Source of the DNA: Apilactobacillus kunkeei
Lineage (GTDB): Bacteria; Bacillota; Bacilli; Lactobacillales; Lactobacillaceae
DNA length: 58,919 bases
Reading direction: 5' to 3'
Assembly: GCF_001308195.1 (NCBI RefSeq)
Contig: NZ_JXDF01000019.1
Span: forward strand, 1 to 58,919
The notes under the pieces were generated by a model that was given only the letters and a program-made list of their open reading frames with translations, was not told the DNA's origin and searched no databases. A program made the position numbers and the translations under genes. Of this stretch, positions 6,734 to 49,034 are shown in pieces (positions within the stretch are counted from its first letter, which is position 1; each line of letters starts with the position of its first letter).

Positions 6734-6753
6734 TGATTTAAATTGATAATTAA

Positions 6754-6829
6754 TGTTTGGGGTGCCGGCATTCGGCTGAGATTCATACCCATAGTACCTG
6801 ATTCAGGATAATCCCTGCGAAGGAAAACA
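6754..6829 (+). promoter_or_regulatory. TPP riboswitch (THI element)
   Basis: The conserved aptamer blocks appear in order: GGGGTGCC, GGCTGAGA, ATACCC, ACCTGATTCAGGATAATCC and GCGAAGGAAA. P1 closes TGTTT with AAACA. It precedes a terminator and the ykoEDC thiamine-precursor transporter, so binding of thiamine pyrophosphate should reduce transcription into the operon. Confidence 0.95.
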
Positions 6830-6872
6830 ACCCTTTTATTTTTAATGCTTTACTAATTTATAAAAATAAATT

Positions 6873-12045: not shown

Positions 12046-12080
12046 AAAAAAGGAACCCGAAATATCGGGTTCCTTTTTTT
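12046..12080. terminator. Terminator, right copy of the duplicated hairpin
   Basis: The 22-base GGAACCCG-loop-CGGGTTCC hairpin matches that at 9801-9822 except for one loop base, and has A- and T-runs on either side. It ends the Sm-repeat gene on the minus strand. Confidence 0.85.
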
Positions 12081-12081
12081 A

Positions 12082-13242
12082 TTACATATCGCCTTTTCTT
12101 CTTAGACGTTGTTCGTCTAGATAAGCATAGATGTATTCAAAACCAACTTCAACGATGTCATTTAACGGAATCTTTTGTCCGTAAATGAAGAAGTTAACTG
12201 TTTCATCCAATAGACTGAACTTCATTGATTCAGGGCCAATCTTTTCCGGGTAACCCAAGAAGTTACTGCCGGACTTTAATTGCAAGCGAATCAATTGATG
12301 CTTGTTCATGGATTGCGTCAAGATGGCGTTTAAATTATCTTCGGTACTGTCGAATTCACGAGAATCGTTTAATACCGGTTGTGATGCATTATGATCTGCG
12401 ATGTTTTGATCCTTCATTAGTTGAACCAATTCAAGATAATCGTTGCCAACGGTGACTCTTTGAATGCCATTCATTCGAATGAAGACATATCCACCGAATT
12501 GTCCTGACATGTCGACCACCTTCAGGATGGCACCACTGTCGTTTAACATGATGACCTCACCGACATAGAAGAAGTGGTCATTGTATCGACAACGAACTTC
12601 GACTAGGTTGTGATGATGGAATGAATCGTTCAATAAATCGATGATGTTGTTGATTGATTCGGCGGTCTTGGCAATGTTTTGTTCCTTAACCTTTCCCATT
12701 ACCTTACTCATGACACTTAGTTCACGACCTTGGAATTCAATGATCATGCTTTGGTTAAAGCCCATGGTGACCAACTCGTTTTGCATGAAGTCAAACTTGT
12801 TAATGCGTAAGAACTTAAAGGAATCATTGCTGATTTTCTTAACCATCCCTGTGTAGAAACGTTCCGCTTCATTGTCGTGAATTAGGATAACCTCTTGGTT
12901 TAAGTATGCTTGAATTAGAATTTGTGGGAACAAGTTGTTGTTGGAATCAAAGTGTAATTCGCTGGGTTTGGATTCCATTAATCCCTCGTCCTTTGCGATT
13001 AACATCTTTTCTTTGATGCTGTCTAGGTCTTCACTTTGGCGTTCCACACTCTCGATGATGGAAGTCTTCATTGCGACGTATCCATCGGCCAGACCACTGG
13101 ATTCGTATGTGGCAATGATGACCTCGTCATCGTTATAAGTTTCAATATAGCCGGTGTAAAAAATATCACCAGTGTTTAAGTAGATATTCACCAGTTGTTT
13201 CTTGCTCATTGCTGCATTTAAATCTGCAATGATAGAGTTCAT
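12082..13242 (-). CDS. Protein with four tandem Sm/Hfq-like repeats, function unknown
   Basis: I do not recognise a named family. The 386-aa soluble protein contains four copies of a roughly 80-residue unit at about 3-80, 102-182, 198-277 and 304-381. Each opens with a short helix and then follows the strand pattern of an Sm barrel, for example QLVNIYLNTGDIFYTGYIET, a loop, then GYVAMKTSIIESVE. This order resembles Hfq (VTIFL-NG-G-IESFD then Y-HAISTV). Repeats 1 and 3 are the most alike. The ATG at 13242 fits GAGGG spacing better than the one at 13248. It starts 14 bases after the asparaginase stop and is probably co-transcribed. RNA or protein binding is inferred only. Confidence 0.7.
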   Translation of the reverse strand: MNSIIADLNAAMSKKQLVNIYLNTGDIFYTGYIETYNDDEVIIATYESSGLADGYVAMKTSIIESVERQSEDLDSIKEKMLIAKDEGLMESKPSELHFDSNNNLFPQILIQAYLNQEVILIHDNEAERFYTGMVKKISNDSFKFLRINKFDFMQNELVTMGFNQSMIIEFQGRELSVMSKVMGKVKEQNIAKTAESINNIIDLLNDSFHHHNLVEVRCRYNDHFFYVGEVIMLNDSGAILKVVDMSGQFGGYVFIRMNGIQRVTVGNDYLELVQLMKDQNIADHNASQPVLNDSREFDSTEDNLNAILTQSMNKHQLIRLQLKSGSNFLGYPEKIGPESMKFSLLDETVNFFIYGQKIPLNDIVEVGFEYIYAYLDEQRLRRKGDM

Positions 13243-13256
13243 AAACATCCCTCACT

Positions 13257-14234
13257 CTATGATATTGCGTTACTCATAAATCTAGCTAACTCTTCACCAG
13301 ACTTGTGCGCACTTAACGCAATGATTAATTTAATACGTGCTTTTTGTCCGTTTAGACCGTGACAGAATTCTAAGCCCATTTCTTCCAGTTGAATTCCTCC
13401 ACCTTCGTAGGCGTAGATGTCTTGGGCAACCCCACTTAGACATCTGGAAACCAAAATGACTGGGATGTTTCTGTCGACTAAACGTTTTACTGAATCTAAT
13501 GTTTCAGGAGGTAGGTTACCAGCACCTAGTCCTTCGATTACTAGACCGTTGGTTTGATCATTATCTAAAGCGTCAAACAAGGTGCCGTCCATGCCGGCAA
13601 AAGCCTTGATTAGATAAACGTGGTCCACTAGTGAATTAACGTTGACGACTTCACTTTGGATTAGTTCTTGGTAAAATGTTGGTTCATGTTTGGAAATAAT
13701 TCCGATTGGACCAAATGTTGGTGTTCTAAAAGTCGCCACGTTGGTAGTGTGGGTCTTAGTAACGTATCTGGCGGTGTGAATTTCATCGTTCATCGCCACC
13801 AAGACACCCTTGTTCTTAGCTTGTGGGCTAGCAGCAGTTGCTGCAGCATTCAATAAGTTGTATAGACCATCTGAACCAATTTCGTTTGATGAACGCATGG
13901 CACCAGTTACGACAACTGGAAAATCATTGGCCAAAGTTAAGTCCAAGAAGTAGGCAGTTTCTTCTAGGGTATCGGTACCGTGGGTAACTACGACACCGTC
14001 GTATCCTTGCTTTCTTGCTTCCTTAATTCGATTAGCGATTTCAAGCATTCTATCAGGGGTCATATGTGGAGATGGTAAGTTAAAAATCTCCTCATTAGTA
14101 ATATCGATTCCTTGATCTAATAAATTATCTTGTTGATTGGCGATTGGATTTTGTTCGTTTTGAACAACTTCCCCGCTTTCGTCTTGAGACATTGAAATAG
14201 TTCCACCGGTGTGAATTGCTAAAATATGCTTCAA
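13257..14234 (-). CDS. ansA: L-asparaginase
   Basis: The enzyme hydrolyses asparagine to aspartate and ammonia. The 325-aa protein has both catalytic threonine motifs, HTGGTIS at 8-14 and THGTDT at 84-89, followed by the family-typical EETAYFLDLT and TGAMRSSNEIGSDG. No signal peptide is present, so it is cytoplasmic. The start is TTG after GAGGGGGG. It is the first gene of a two-gene unit with the Sm-repeat protein. The aspartate it yields could feed the lysine pathway encoded further right. Confidence 0.9.
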   Translation of the reverse strand: MKHILAIHTGGTISMSQDESGEVVQNEQNPIANQQDNLLDQGIDITNEEIFNLPSPHMTPDRMLEIANRIKEARKQGYDGVVVTHGTDTLEETAYFLDLTLANDFPVVVTGAMRSSNEIGSDGLYNLLNAAATAASPQAKNKGVLVAMNDEIHTARYVTKTHTTNVATFRTPTFGPIGIISKHEPTFYQELIQSEVVNVNSLVDHVYLIKAFAGMDGTLFDALDNDQTNGLVIEGLGAGNLPPETLDSVKRLVDRNIPVILVSRCLSGVAQDIYAYEGGGIQLEEMGLEFCHGLNGQKARIKLIIALSAHKSGEELARFMSNAIS

Positions 14235-14348: not shown

Positions 14349-14372
14349 TGAATTACAAAATTAAATCAGTTA

Positions 14373-14443
14373 TTGCCTATATATTTACCATAATAAGGTT
14401 GGTAAGTTTCTACCCGGAACCGTAAAGTTCGGACTATAAGCAA
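14373..14443 (+). promoter_or_regulatory. Guanine-class purine riboswitch
   Basis: P1 pairs TTGCCTAT with ATAAGCAA (one mismatch). P2 is TTACCA/TGGTAA. The core joining segment GTTTCTACC and P3 CCGGAA/TTCGG are present. The specificity base in GGACTATA is C (14434), which pairs with guanine or hypoxanthine; adenine aptamers have U there. It precedes a purine permease gene. Confidence 0.9.
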
Positions 14444-14472
14444 AAAGATGAAGGTCTCTTTGCTTTTTCTAG
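14439..14472 (+). terminator. Expression-platform terminator of the guanine riboswitch
   Basis: AGCAAAAAGA pairs with TCTCTTTGCT (with a bulge), followed by TTTTCT. Its left arm overlaps the 3' strand of aptamer P1, so ligand binding and this terminator must be linked. A further T-rich stretch follows at 14481-14492. Confidence 0.6.
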
Positions 14473-24190: not shown

Positions 24191-24215
24191 TAAAAATACA
24201 TAATAATATATTAGG

Positions 24216-24437
24216 TTTTGATGAGAAAAGTACATAACGGATGATTGCCAAGAGAGTTCATGGTTGGTGGAAATGAACGTTTCAAAGTTATCGAAAATGG
24301 TCTCTGAACCTTCGGGGGTGAATTGTTTAGCTCTCGACATTTGTGTATGTTACAACACGAAGGAATCAACAGGTTCTAGATAAGATAGTTAATGATATTA
24401 ATGTATCATTTTAGCTATAAAACTAAGGTGGTACCGC
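24216..24437 (+). promoter_or_regulatory. T-box leader, probably methionine-specific
   Basis: Stem I has AGAGAG (24251-24256), a distal hairpin GTTCAT/ATGAAC enclosing GGTTGGTGGAA, and an unpaired ATG at 24297-24299 that I propose as the Met specifier. The T-box sequence AAGGTGGTACCGCG ends the leader (24425-24438). Its TGGT matches a tRNA with discriminator A, as tRNA-Met has. Downstream genes use S-methylmethionine, in agreement. The specifier is inferred; the T-box itself is certain. Confidence 0.9.
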
Positions 24438-24440
24438 GAA

Positions 24441-24478
24441 GCATTCGCCCTTTTTGTAAGGGCGGGTGCTTTTTTTAT
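24441..24478 (+). terminator. T-box terminator
   Basis: GCATTCGCCC pairs with GGGCGGGTGC and is followed by TTTTTTTATTT. It should form when charged tRNA-Met is abundant. Confidence 0.85.
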
Positions 24479-35239: not shown

Positions 35240-35430
35240 TTCAATTGTCGAAAGCGCTCCACAAGACATATTTTCTTGTGACAGTCCGTGCATTCTTCAC
35301 ACACGTCCCAGAAAATGATCTCTGCAAAAAATCATTAACTTCGGCAAGTTCACCTTTCAATAAAGCTCGTAGTCATTGCAGTGACTGACTTTATCTACTA
35401 ATCTCGCTTGCGACCTCTTCGATTACTTTT
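35240..35430 (-). promoter_or_regulatory. Lysine riboswitch (L box)
   Basis: Read on the minus strand the conserved L-box pieces appear in order: AGAGGTCGCAAGCGAGATTAGTA, GAAAGGTGAACTTGCCGAAG, CTGGGACG, GGACTGTCAC and GGAGCGCTTTCGA. P1 pairs AATCGAAG with CTTTCGACAATT imperfectly. High lysine should favour the terminator and shut down the lysA-dap operon. Confidence 0.95.
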
Positions 35431-37949: not shown

Positions 37950-37979
37950 AAAAAGACTAGCTGATGCTAGTCTTTTTTA
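37948..37979. terminator. Bidirectional terminator
   Basis: An AAGACTAGC / GCTAGTCTT stem with A- and T-runs lies between dapF and the convergent CHY zinc-finger gene. Confidence 0.85.
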
Positions 37980-38276
37980 GTCTTTAAAGTATAAATGTTC
38001 ATGTAGTTCGCATTTCGGATTAAACTGTGCAAAGCAATATGGACAGACCTTATCTTGGTATTGTTGAAAGGTTAGTTTGTGTTTACAACGGCCGCACATG
38101 ACCGGCTTAGTATCCTTGGTACTAATTGGCACAAAGTCGTGATCAACCACTAAATTATGGCATTGATAACACGCAAAGTATTGGTGACACTGACCACATT
38201 CCATGGCCGCAATGTCGTGAGGCTGATGGTAGTGAATGCAGCGACCATCACTATCTAATTGAATTCCGTAAATCAT
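37977..38276 (-). CDS. CHY-type zinc-finger protein
   Basis: The 99-aa protein is densely packed with metal ligands: C13, H15, H20, C27, C30, C36, C39, H40, C61, C64, C78, C81, C89, H92. The order C-x-HY, then CxxC-x5-CxxCH, then later CxxC pairs, is that of CHY zinc fingers, known from small bacterial proteins and from eukaryotic Hot13. It likely binds two to three zinc ions. Role unknown. It follows the Sm-like gene by 20 bases on the same strand and may be co-transcribed. Confidence 0.85.
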   Translation of the reverse strand: MIYGIQLDSDGRCIHYHQPHDIAAMECGQCHQYFACYQCHNLVVDHDFVPISTKDTKPVMCGRCKHKLTFQQYQDKVCPYCFAQFNPKCELHEHLYFKD

Positions 38277-38296: not shown

Positions 38297-38893
38297 TTAT
38301 TTATTATTTGATTCTGGTTTTTTTAACAAATACTGCTCGTATAAATGATTGTTCTTACTCAAGAAGTTAATCTCGGTGGTCTTATTAATTCTAATTGTCG
38401 TATTACAGTTCTCGTGCTCATTTAAATCAGCAAGGTACTCGGATTCATTGAGCGTCATGACGTTGTCGGTTAATAGGACAATCTTGCCATGCTCGACGTA
38501 TTCGCCCTCTAATACGCAAACGCTTATCACCTTTTCGGCCTCAAAGCAGTTCAATAAGACCTGTTGGATTGTGTTGGCGTTAAATGTATCCCACTGGTTC
38601 ATTAAATGATAAGGATCGTATAAATCACTTTCCATATTCTGTTCAATATAGGAATTCAGCATGTCGGTATAAGCAGTTTCATACCTTATTTCTAAAATGT
38701 CACTTTTTAAAAATGCTGTCACTGTGTCTAACGCACCATTCAAATCGATGGTCTTCACAACAACAAAATCACCTAAGTCTTTTAAAAAATAACCTAATGA
38801 AAAGCTGTCTAATTCATATCCATCCCTGGATTTGAAGTACCATTCAGCTAATCGGCTATCTCCGATATATTCATCGTTTGTGACTATGTCCAT
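38297..38893 (-). CDS. Protein with at least one Sm-like module, related to the 12082-13242 product
   Basis: No named family is recognised. Residues about 107-190 repeat the plan of the four-repeat protein: NTIQQVLLNCFEAEKVISV, then LEGEYVEHGKIVLLTDNVMT, an acidic loop, and TTIRINKTTEINFLSKNN, matching the strand order of repeat 1 there. The first half (about 30-88) may be a second, more divergent copy (DFVVVKTIDLNG to LEIRYE). Soluble, 198 aa. GAAGGTG precedes the ATG. It is divergent from a DHA2 pump and followed by the CHY zinc-finger gene. Confidence 0.6.
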   Translation of the reverse strand: MDIVTNDEYIGDSRLAEWYFKSRDGYELDSFSLGYFLKDLGDFVVVKTIDLNGALDTVTAFLKSDILEIRYETAYTDMLNSYIEQNMESDLYDPYHLMNQWDTFNANTIQQVLLNCFEAEKVISVCVLEGEYVEHGKIVLLTDNVMTLNESEYLADLNEHENCNTTIRINKTTEINFLSKNNHLYEQYLLKKPESNNK

Positions 38894-48750: not shown

Positions 48751-48790
48751 AAAAAAACTCCGCTTCTAGATTAAATCTAGAAACGGAGTT
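48751..48790 (-). terminator. T-box terminator of the metQ operon
   Basis: On the minus strand AACTCCGTTTCTAGA pairs with TCTAGAAGCGGAGTT (one mismatch) and is followed by seven T. Confidence 0.85.
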
Positions 48791-49034
48791 CCGTGGTACC
48801 ATTCTAATTCAGCGGAAGCTTGCACTCCCACCCTCAATAACGTCTATATAAACGCGTGCAATTAATAATGGTTGCCACCCCATCATCGCTTAATTATCAG
48901 CGATGCCAAATTACAGGCCATATTCATTATCTTCTGATTCATTCACTTTCAGCAAACGTGAACTCTCTGCGCAATCATTGGATAACTACTCTCCTGATCA
49001 TCTTGTTTTATTCGTATCGGTTAAGTTGTTTTAT
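48791..49034 (-). promoter_or_regulatory. T-box leader, probably methionine-specific
   Basis: On the minus strand the leader shows AGAGAG with a distal hairpin GTTCAC/GTGAAT around GTTTGCTGAAA, an unpaired ATG at 48921-48919 proposed as the specifier, and a T-box AGAATGGTACCACGG. The core TGGTACC is intact though the flanks differ from the usual GGGTGG-ACCGCG. TGGT suits a tRNA with discriminator A. The metQNI genes downstream support Met. Confidence 0.85.

Follow-up and report, generated by a model that had tools for sequence, protein, structure and literature searches.

A four-repeat, predicted Sm-like protein of Apilactobacillus kunkeei as a possible acidic adaptor

Hfq assembles as a ring of six single-barrel chains and carries the pore motif YKH-A-I-S, while RimP and Rof each have one barrel per chain; a duplicated Hfq has reportedly been found in Novosphingobium, which our literature search did not confirm. 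RimP is described as a maturation factor of the 30S subunit (PMC3716926). Rof (YaeO), which is Sm-like, is described as a blocker of Rho (PMC11018626), and YolD as a predicted SH3 barrel that is related to Sm domains and expected to bind a polymerase tail (PMC6511836). For WYL domains, ligand binding is predicted, two copies in one chain are frequent, and ring formation is considered possible (PMC4012209). FlgV of Borrelia is described as a supposed Hfq that turned out to be something else, with a fold that is not Sm-like (PMC11607428). Here we analysed a gene at 12082..13242 on the minus strand of a stretch of Apilactobacillus kunkeei DNA (contig NZ_JXDF01000019.1, 58,919 nucleotides, hereafter the window), which encodes a 386-residue protein with four repeats of predicted Sm-like type. 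An earlier note on this DNA had proposed that the four units could form a pseudo-ring or an eight-barrel dimer, possibly replacing Hfq. Literature searches of PubMed Central (PMC), outside which most subscription papers lie, returned no article that, judged by its title and the beginning of its abstract, concerns this protein or a four-barrel Sm-like chain.

The presence of four repeats in one chain is confirmed by profile comparisons within the protein family. In the numbering of a longer, 388-residue reading of the gene, the putative barrels, all on the minus strand, are R1 (A type) at residues 8-72 (13033..13227), R2 at 108-174 (12727..12927), R3 (A type) at 204-269 (12442..12639) and R4, the weakest of the four, at 308-370 (12139..12327), and an iterated hidden Markov model (HMM) matched them with E values of 1.4e-21, 1.8e-16, 2.3e-20 and 8.6e-13, respectively. 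They are 63-67 residues long with a period of about 100 residues (starts at 8, 108, 204 and 308), so that the four related units of the earlier note stand, its unit of about 80 residues does not, and its repeat motif stands out in R1 and R3 but has largely decayed in R2 and R4. Of 38 relatives, 23 entered our four-barrel alignment, from which we dropped near-copies, reads that start late and the gapped sequence L038; the profile-profile comparison of the four quarters of the protein was built on alignments of the relatives minus L008, L009 and L038 (one earlier family profile had retained these three, L038 with a run of X). The pair R1-R3 gave E 6.7e-15 (probability score 98), followed by R1-R2 (2e-7, 94), R2-R4 (3.6e-7, 93), R3-R4 (2.2e-6, 89), R2-R3 (1.6e-5, 79) and R1-R4 (3.8e-4, 36). 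When only R1 and R3 were used for training, the HMM matched R2 of the window protein at E 0.00028 and R4 at 0.04; among the 23 relatives, R2 was matched at E<0.1 in 18, <0.01 in 14 and <1e-3 in nine, and R4 in five, one and none, with seven of 2,120 proteins in the shuffle control reaching E<0.1 and none <0.01. The iterated HMM, which is partly circular in that it learns from its own matches, was run on 53 proteins (23 four-barrel, 15 of the 17 aligned two-barrel and 15 others, fragments and near-copies dropped) and found four barrels in all 23 relatives, R4 of L025 being partial only. Because R4 is weak with the R1/R3 model, it rests on the iterated HMM and on the quarter comparison, where its support is mainly likeness to R2 and R3. 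The glycine of strand 2, which is the glycine of the Sm1 motif, is invariant in all 87 diverse barrels of the barrel alignment (87 of 94 non-redundant barrels). Other conserved spots are the beta3-beta4 loops TYDDxGLxDGxV in R1 and DMxGQFGGY in R3, and the linker QPVLN ahead of R4. Such a chain is well suited to studying how Sm barrels assemble when they are covalently linked.

In an AlphaFold2 model of residues 1-92 (predicted local distance difference test score, pLDDT, 75.4; predicted template modelling score, pTM, 0.63) repeat 1 appears as an N-terminal helix followed by an Sm fold of five strands. The five-strand bent barrel and strand-2 glycine typical of the small-barrel superfamily are both present, and a small barrel fold of Sm-like type is thus well supported by prediction for repeat 1. 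Modelling of the whole chain gave a poor result (pLDDT 46), and repeat 1, modelled separately, is the only unit with a good model, so that the Sm-like fold claimed earlier for all units holds in a predicted structure for repeat 1 and by sequence profile for R2-R4, which presumably fold alike. Among the best structural matches of the repeat 1 model are the WYL proteins PafBC, BrxR and DriD.

Searches against known families left the 23 relatives below all Pfam cut-offs and the family members scanned without an NCBIfam name. No Pfam model scored above its cut-off in any of the 23 relatives. The near-misses, Hfq not among them, were the MOV-10 beta-barrel (22.3 bits against a cut-off of 23.6) in four relatives, always on R2 (for example L012:1501-2664, residues 116-151), Cpn10 (18.9 against 21.1) and the RimP C-terminal domain (18.7 against 26.3), together with plainly unrelated names. 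An NCBIfam scan of ten family members gave nothing firm, and neither did Pfam, NCBIfam and PDB searches with the window protein (best PDB match a designed protein, E 0.19), PDB searches with family profiles (best E 0.66, 0.72 and 0.56), plasmid and phage searches that used the window protein as query, or searches of viral contigs or of PHROGs, where one of 87 members matched an unnamed family at E 0.0073. A match of the four-barrel alignment profile in genome G023 (L143, 206 residues) looks like a regulator of TetR type, and we discarded it as false. Of five families compared by profile, the RimP C-terminal barrel (PF17384) came closest (probability score 62, score 23.7, 60 of 70 columns collinear), mostly through the B-type barrels (76, against 21 for the A type; R1 10.5, R3 1.7). 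However, the PF17384 cut-off was missed (three of 23 relatives match, with the 18.7 bits given above as the best), RimP domains are basic, and RimP itself is a separate gene in this genome (G000:C17). From Sm and LSm proteins the family differs in having four barrels per chain and in not keeping the Sm2 arginine in R1, where arginine or lysine stands at that place in eight of 23 relatives.

Among 151 genomes of the family, the four-barrel protein turned up in 54 and two-barrel matches alone in ten more (manual count), and copies at 97-99% identity occur in Apilactobacillus kunkeei, waqarii, zhangqiuensis and nanyangensis. In two of the 54 the four-barrel gene is broken by stops (G094:C12:146749-147900 and G133:C2:154009-155179), through gene loss or sequencing error. 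Two-barrel kin are found in 17 genomes of another family of the order (f8), and in families f9, f17, f25 and f37, where, not counting the own genome, they occur in 10 of 299 genomes searched; one plasmid record carries such a gene, annotated as hypothetical. The own genome has two, one of them in the window at 38297..38893 on the minus strand (198 residues, profile E 7.0e-16, barrels at 1.2e-7 and 1.5e-5) and the other on contig G000:C30. Among 30 two-barrel proteins scanned, both barrels reach E<1e-3 in 27, the second is weak in two (0.17 and 0.26) and a single barrel is seen in one; in the two-barrel alignment (17 of 20 proteins), the best Pfam E values listed were 0.00089 for DapB_N (two of 17) and 0.002 for Phage_Hfq (six of 17). 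In a tree of 104 barrels, taken from 13 of the 23 four-barrel proteins and the two-barrel sets and flagged for too few columns, R1, R3 and the first barrels of the two-barrel proteins form one group (support 89/89, short of the star threshold of the tool), with R3 closer to these first barrels than R1 (93/85). R2, R4 and the second barrels of Lactobacillaceae form three groups of their own, with no joint B group. R1 and R3 are thus shown by computation on the sequences to be close kin of each other and of these first barrels, and R2 and R4 may be sister B-type barrels. Most likely the A-B-A-B order arose when an older two-barrel protein, present in Bacilli, was duplicated, a history that is well supported for the A half only.

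All 23 four-barrel relatives are acidic, with a median of -7.7 charges per 100 residues (range -10.8 to -2.3). This median lies below all 91 soluble neighbour proteins, and Hfq domains (+3.1) and RimP domains (median +4.3) are on the positive side, in a control that called open reading frames (ORFs) in a simple way, removed membrane proteins with a rough filter and set whole four-barrel proteins against single Hfq, RimP and WYL domains. Such acidity does not extend to the family at large, since two-barrel kin from Lactobacillaceae span -7.5 to +5.9 per 100 residues; in a mixed set from f8 and other Bacilli all 19 two-barrel proteins are acidic. Acidity speaks against general, non-specific RNA binding.

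We tentatively favour, at somewhat less than even confidence, an acidic adaptor or scaffold that binds protein rather than a small-RNA chaperone. The single chain would be a string of four Sm/SH3-like small beta-barrels in A-B-A-B order, and the conserved beta3-beta4 loops of R1 and R3 would hold a protein partner, much as Rof grips Rho or as YolD is expected to grip a polymerase tail. An acidic binding scaffold is preferred because conservation falls on these loops and on QPVLN, whereas among the Sm pore residues it is confined to the R3 arginine. Several points weigh against the adaptor. We found no partner of the four-barrel protein and no experiment on it, and the acidity opposes non-specific RNA binding, not a specific site. 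The arginine or lysine at the Sm2 arginine place of R3 (19 of 23 relatives) would suit binding of RNA or a nucleotide, and the link to RimP, itself a factor related to ribosomal RNA, comes mostly from the B-type barrels. One relative is no more than mildly acidic (the -2.3 above), and the charge of the lactobacillar two-barrel kin is as variable as described. Repeat 1 is the only well-modelled barrel, and the B half of the A-B-A-B order is weak: R2 matches R1 as well as it does R4, and the tree, short of columns as it is, does not unite the two.

Regarding the gene itself, the listed ORF covers 12082-13248 on the minus strand (388 residues), with an alternative ATG at 13242. The latter is the likelier start because a GAGGG, a putative ribosome-binding site (13249..13253, minus strand), lies 6 nucleotides upstream and several relatives share the MNSI start; the gene end at 13242 given earlier therefore holds. 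Two bases beyond the stop codon lies a hairpin resembling an intrinsic terminator (12046..12079, minus strand), with a 15-pair stem and a T run. The gene at 13257..14234, upstream on the same strand at 14 nucleotides from ATG 13242 and 8 from ATG 13248, is presumably asparaginase-like (ansA-like), the name that the earlier note gave it; as that note said, it is the immediate neighbour, and the two genes probably share one transcript. An ansA-like gene is the immediate same-strand neighbour, with the four-barrel gene behind it, in nine of 21 loci. In seven others, from other genera, the four-barrel gene follows dnaB, with purA directly downstream in six (one representative each of dnaB and purA was checked with Pfam). 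With its neighbours so divided between ansA-like and dnaB, the gene is tied to no single enzyme, and since the asparaginase-like neighbour found here gives way to dnaB in other genera, the protein looks like a free-standing accessory factor and not a dedicated asparaginase subunit.

The two-barrel genes lie in other surroundings. The one in the window adjoins a small cysteine-rich ORF (37977-38276), and genes nearby look to us like lysine biosynthesis; Rfam gives a lysine riboswitch at 35243-35427 (minus strand). The second gene of this genome (L142:6284-6862, on G000:C30) lies a short way behind a regulator containing the C-terminal helix-turn-helix of PucR (E 8.1e-16), and it is convergent with a gene that is presumably permease-like. 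Lactobacillar two-barrel genes L041, L043, L050, L057 and L058 have a HAD-hydrolase gene before them and clusters containing a LytTR response regulator after them (representatives checked). In f8, the two-barrel gene is directly behind an RHS-like cluster gene in two of eight fetched loci and separated from it by one gene in four (L124 and L127-L131), a placement that an immunity gene might have, and the one cluster gene scanned contains RHS repeats (E 3.4e-61).

The claim that most lactobacilli lack Hfq agrees with our data: PF17209 has no match in the whole genome of this strain, nor in any genome of its own family (f1) in the order sample, where Hfq is present in 33 of 246 genomes, all of them f8, as compared to 92 of 101 in the class sample. 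Passages on Hfq in some papers on lactic acid bacteria are silent on its absence there. The absence would suit the proposal of an RNA-binding stand-in, formed as a pseudo-ring of the four barrels of one chain or as a ring of eight barrels from two chains, and so would the Sm-like predicted fold, the Sm2-like I-R-x-x-x-I of R3 with its widely kept arginine or lysine (in the window protein, R2 and R4 show no Sm2 arginine) and the RimP barrel, from a 30S maturation factor, as nearest profile. Nevertheless we regard it as very unlikely. Hfq has YKH and basic domains, whereas the four-barrel protein is acidic and has no YKH; KTSII (R1) and RMNGI (R3) are aligned there, and relatives do not have YKH either. 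None of the 23 relatives reaches the PF17209 cut-off of 27 bits, the one weak match being 14.4 bits (L005). The Hfq profile scored 16.7 against the family, a value reached in one of 100 shuffles, with sub-profile probability scores of 0.3 for A-type and 16.5 for B-type barrels, and the low effective number of sequences (Neff) of 1.4 in the Hfq set may understate the likeness. All nine four-barrel genomes of the order sample lack Hfq, as do many members of the order without a four-barrel protein, and since this form was undetected in 97 of the 151 family genomes, most sampled Hfq-less relatives do without it. Moreover, two-barrel kin coexist with true Hfq in all 17 f8 genomes with a two-barrel match. 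Neither RNA binding nor replacement of Hfq is thus supported, and a unit that resembles Hfq, in a genome without this chaperone, is not necessarily its substitute. A narrower version, in which one chain forms a pseudo-ring or two chains a ring of eight barrels, the A and B positions differ in specificity, and the ring binds a defined RNA or nucleic-acid-like ligand and partly does the job of Hfq, is highly improbable; if four barrels did form one ring, each Sm-like position could be altered on its own.

Three further explanations compete with the acidic adaptor. The barrels could be a ligand sensor that binds a nucleotide or an amino acid, as predicted for WYL domains, and links aspartate with purine metabolism. 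Asparaginase makes aspartate and PurA consumes it, and the neighbours described above (asparaginase-like, or dnaB with purA) would fit such a link, as would the WYL proteins among the structural matches and the two-barrel genes of this genome, one near the putative lysine genes and a lysine riboswitch, the other behind a PucR-type regulator beside a permease-like gene. Yet neighbours differ among genera, PF13280 has no match in this genome and is unlisted at E<=0.1 for the 23 relatives, the profile scores of the family to WYL and YolD are weak, and the WYL match spans 19 columns only. WYL domains are also described as having conserved basic residues, a misfit to an acidic protein, and often a DNA-binding domain (PMC4012209). 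A sensor is therefore unlikely, and the aspartate link is conjecture. The RHS loci of f8, six of eight, and the uniform acidity of the mixed two-barrel set would agree with a role of immunity type, namely neutralisation of a toxin or nuclease, with the lactobacillar four-barrel form as a domesticated orphan. As another gene intervenes in four of these six loci, and no RHS-cluster gene was found near the four-barrel gene in 21 loci, where most neighbours were not scanned with models, we consider this quite unlikely. Rof, which like the proposed adaptor acts on a protein partner, is described as Sm-like and restricted to Pseudomonadota (PMC11018626), and a Rof-like inhibitor of the transcription terminator Rho has a negligible chance here: no Rho RNA-binding domain was found in this genome (completeness 99.94), barring a miss by the model or an assembly gap, and the presence of Rho shows no link to the four-barrel protein, since 11 of the 54 genomes with this protein carry Rho, as do 16 of the other 97. 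Action on Rho was set aside on these grounds.

The window contains several other regulatory RNA elements. A purine riboswitch (14357-14456, plus strand) lies ahead of a nucleobase-permease-like gene, a thiamine pyrophosphate (TPP) riboswitch is located at 6748-6842 on the plus strand, and T-boxes are present at 24209-24455 (plus strand) and 48776-49010 (minus strand).
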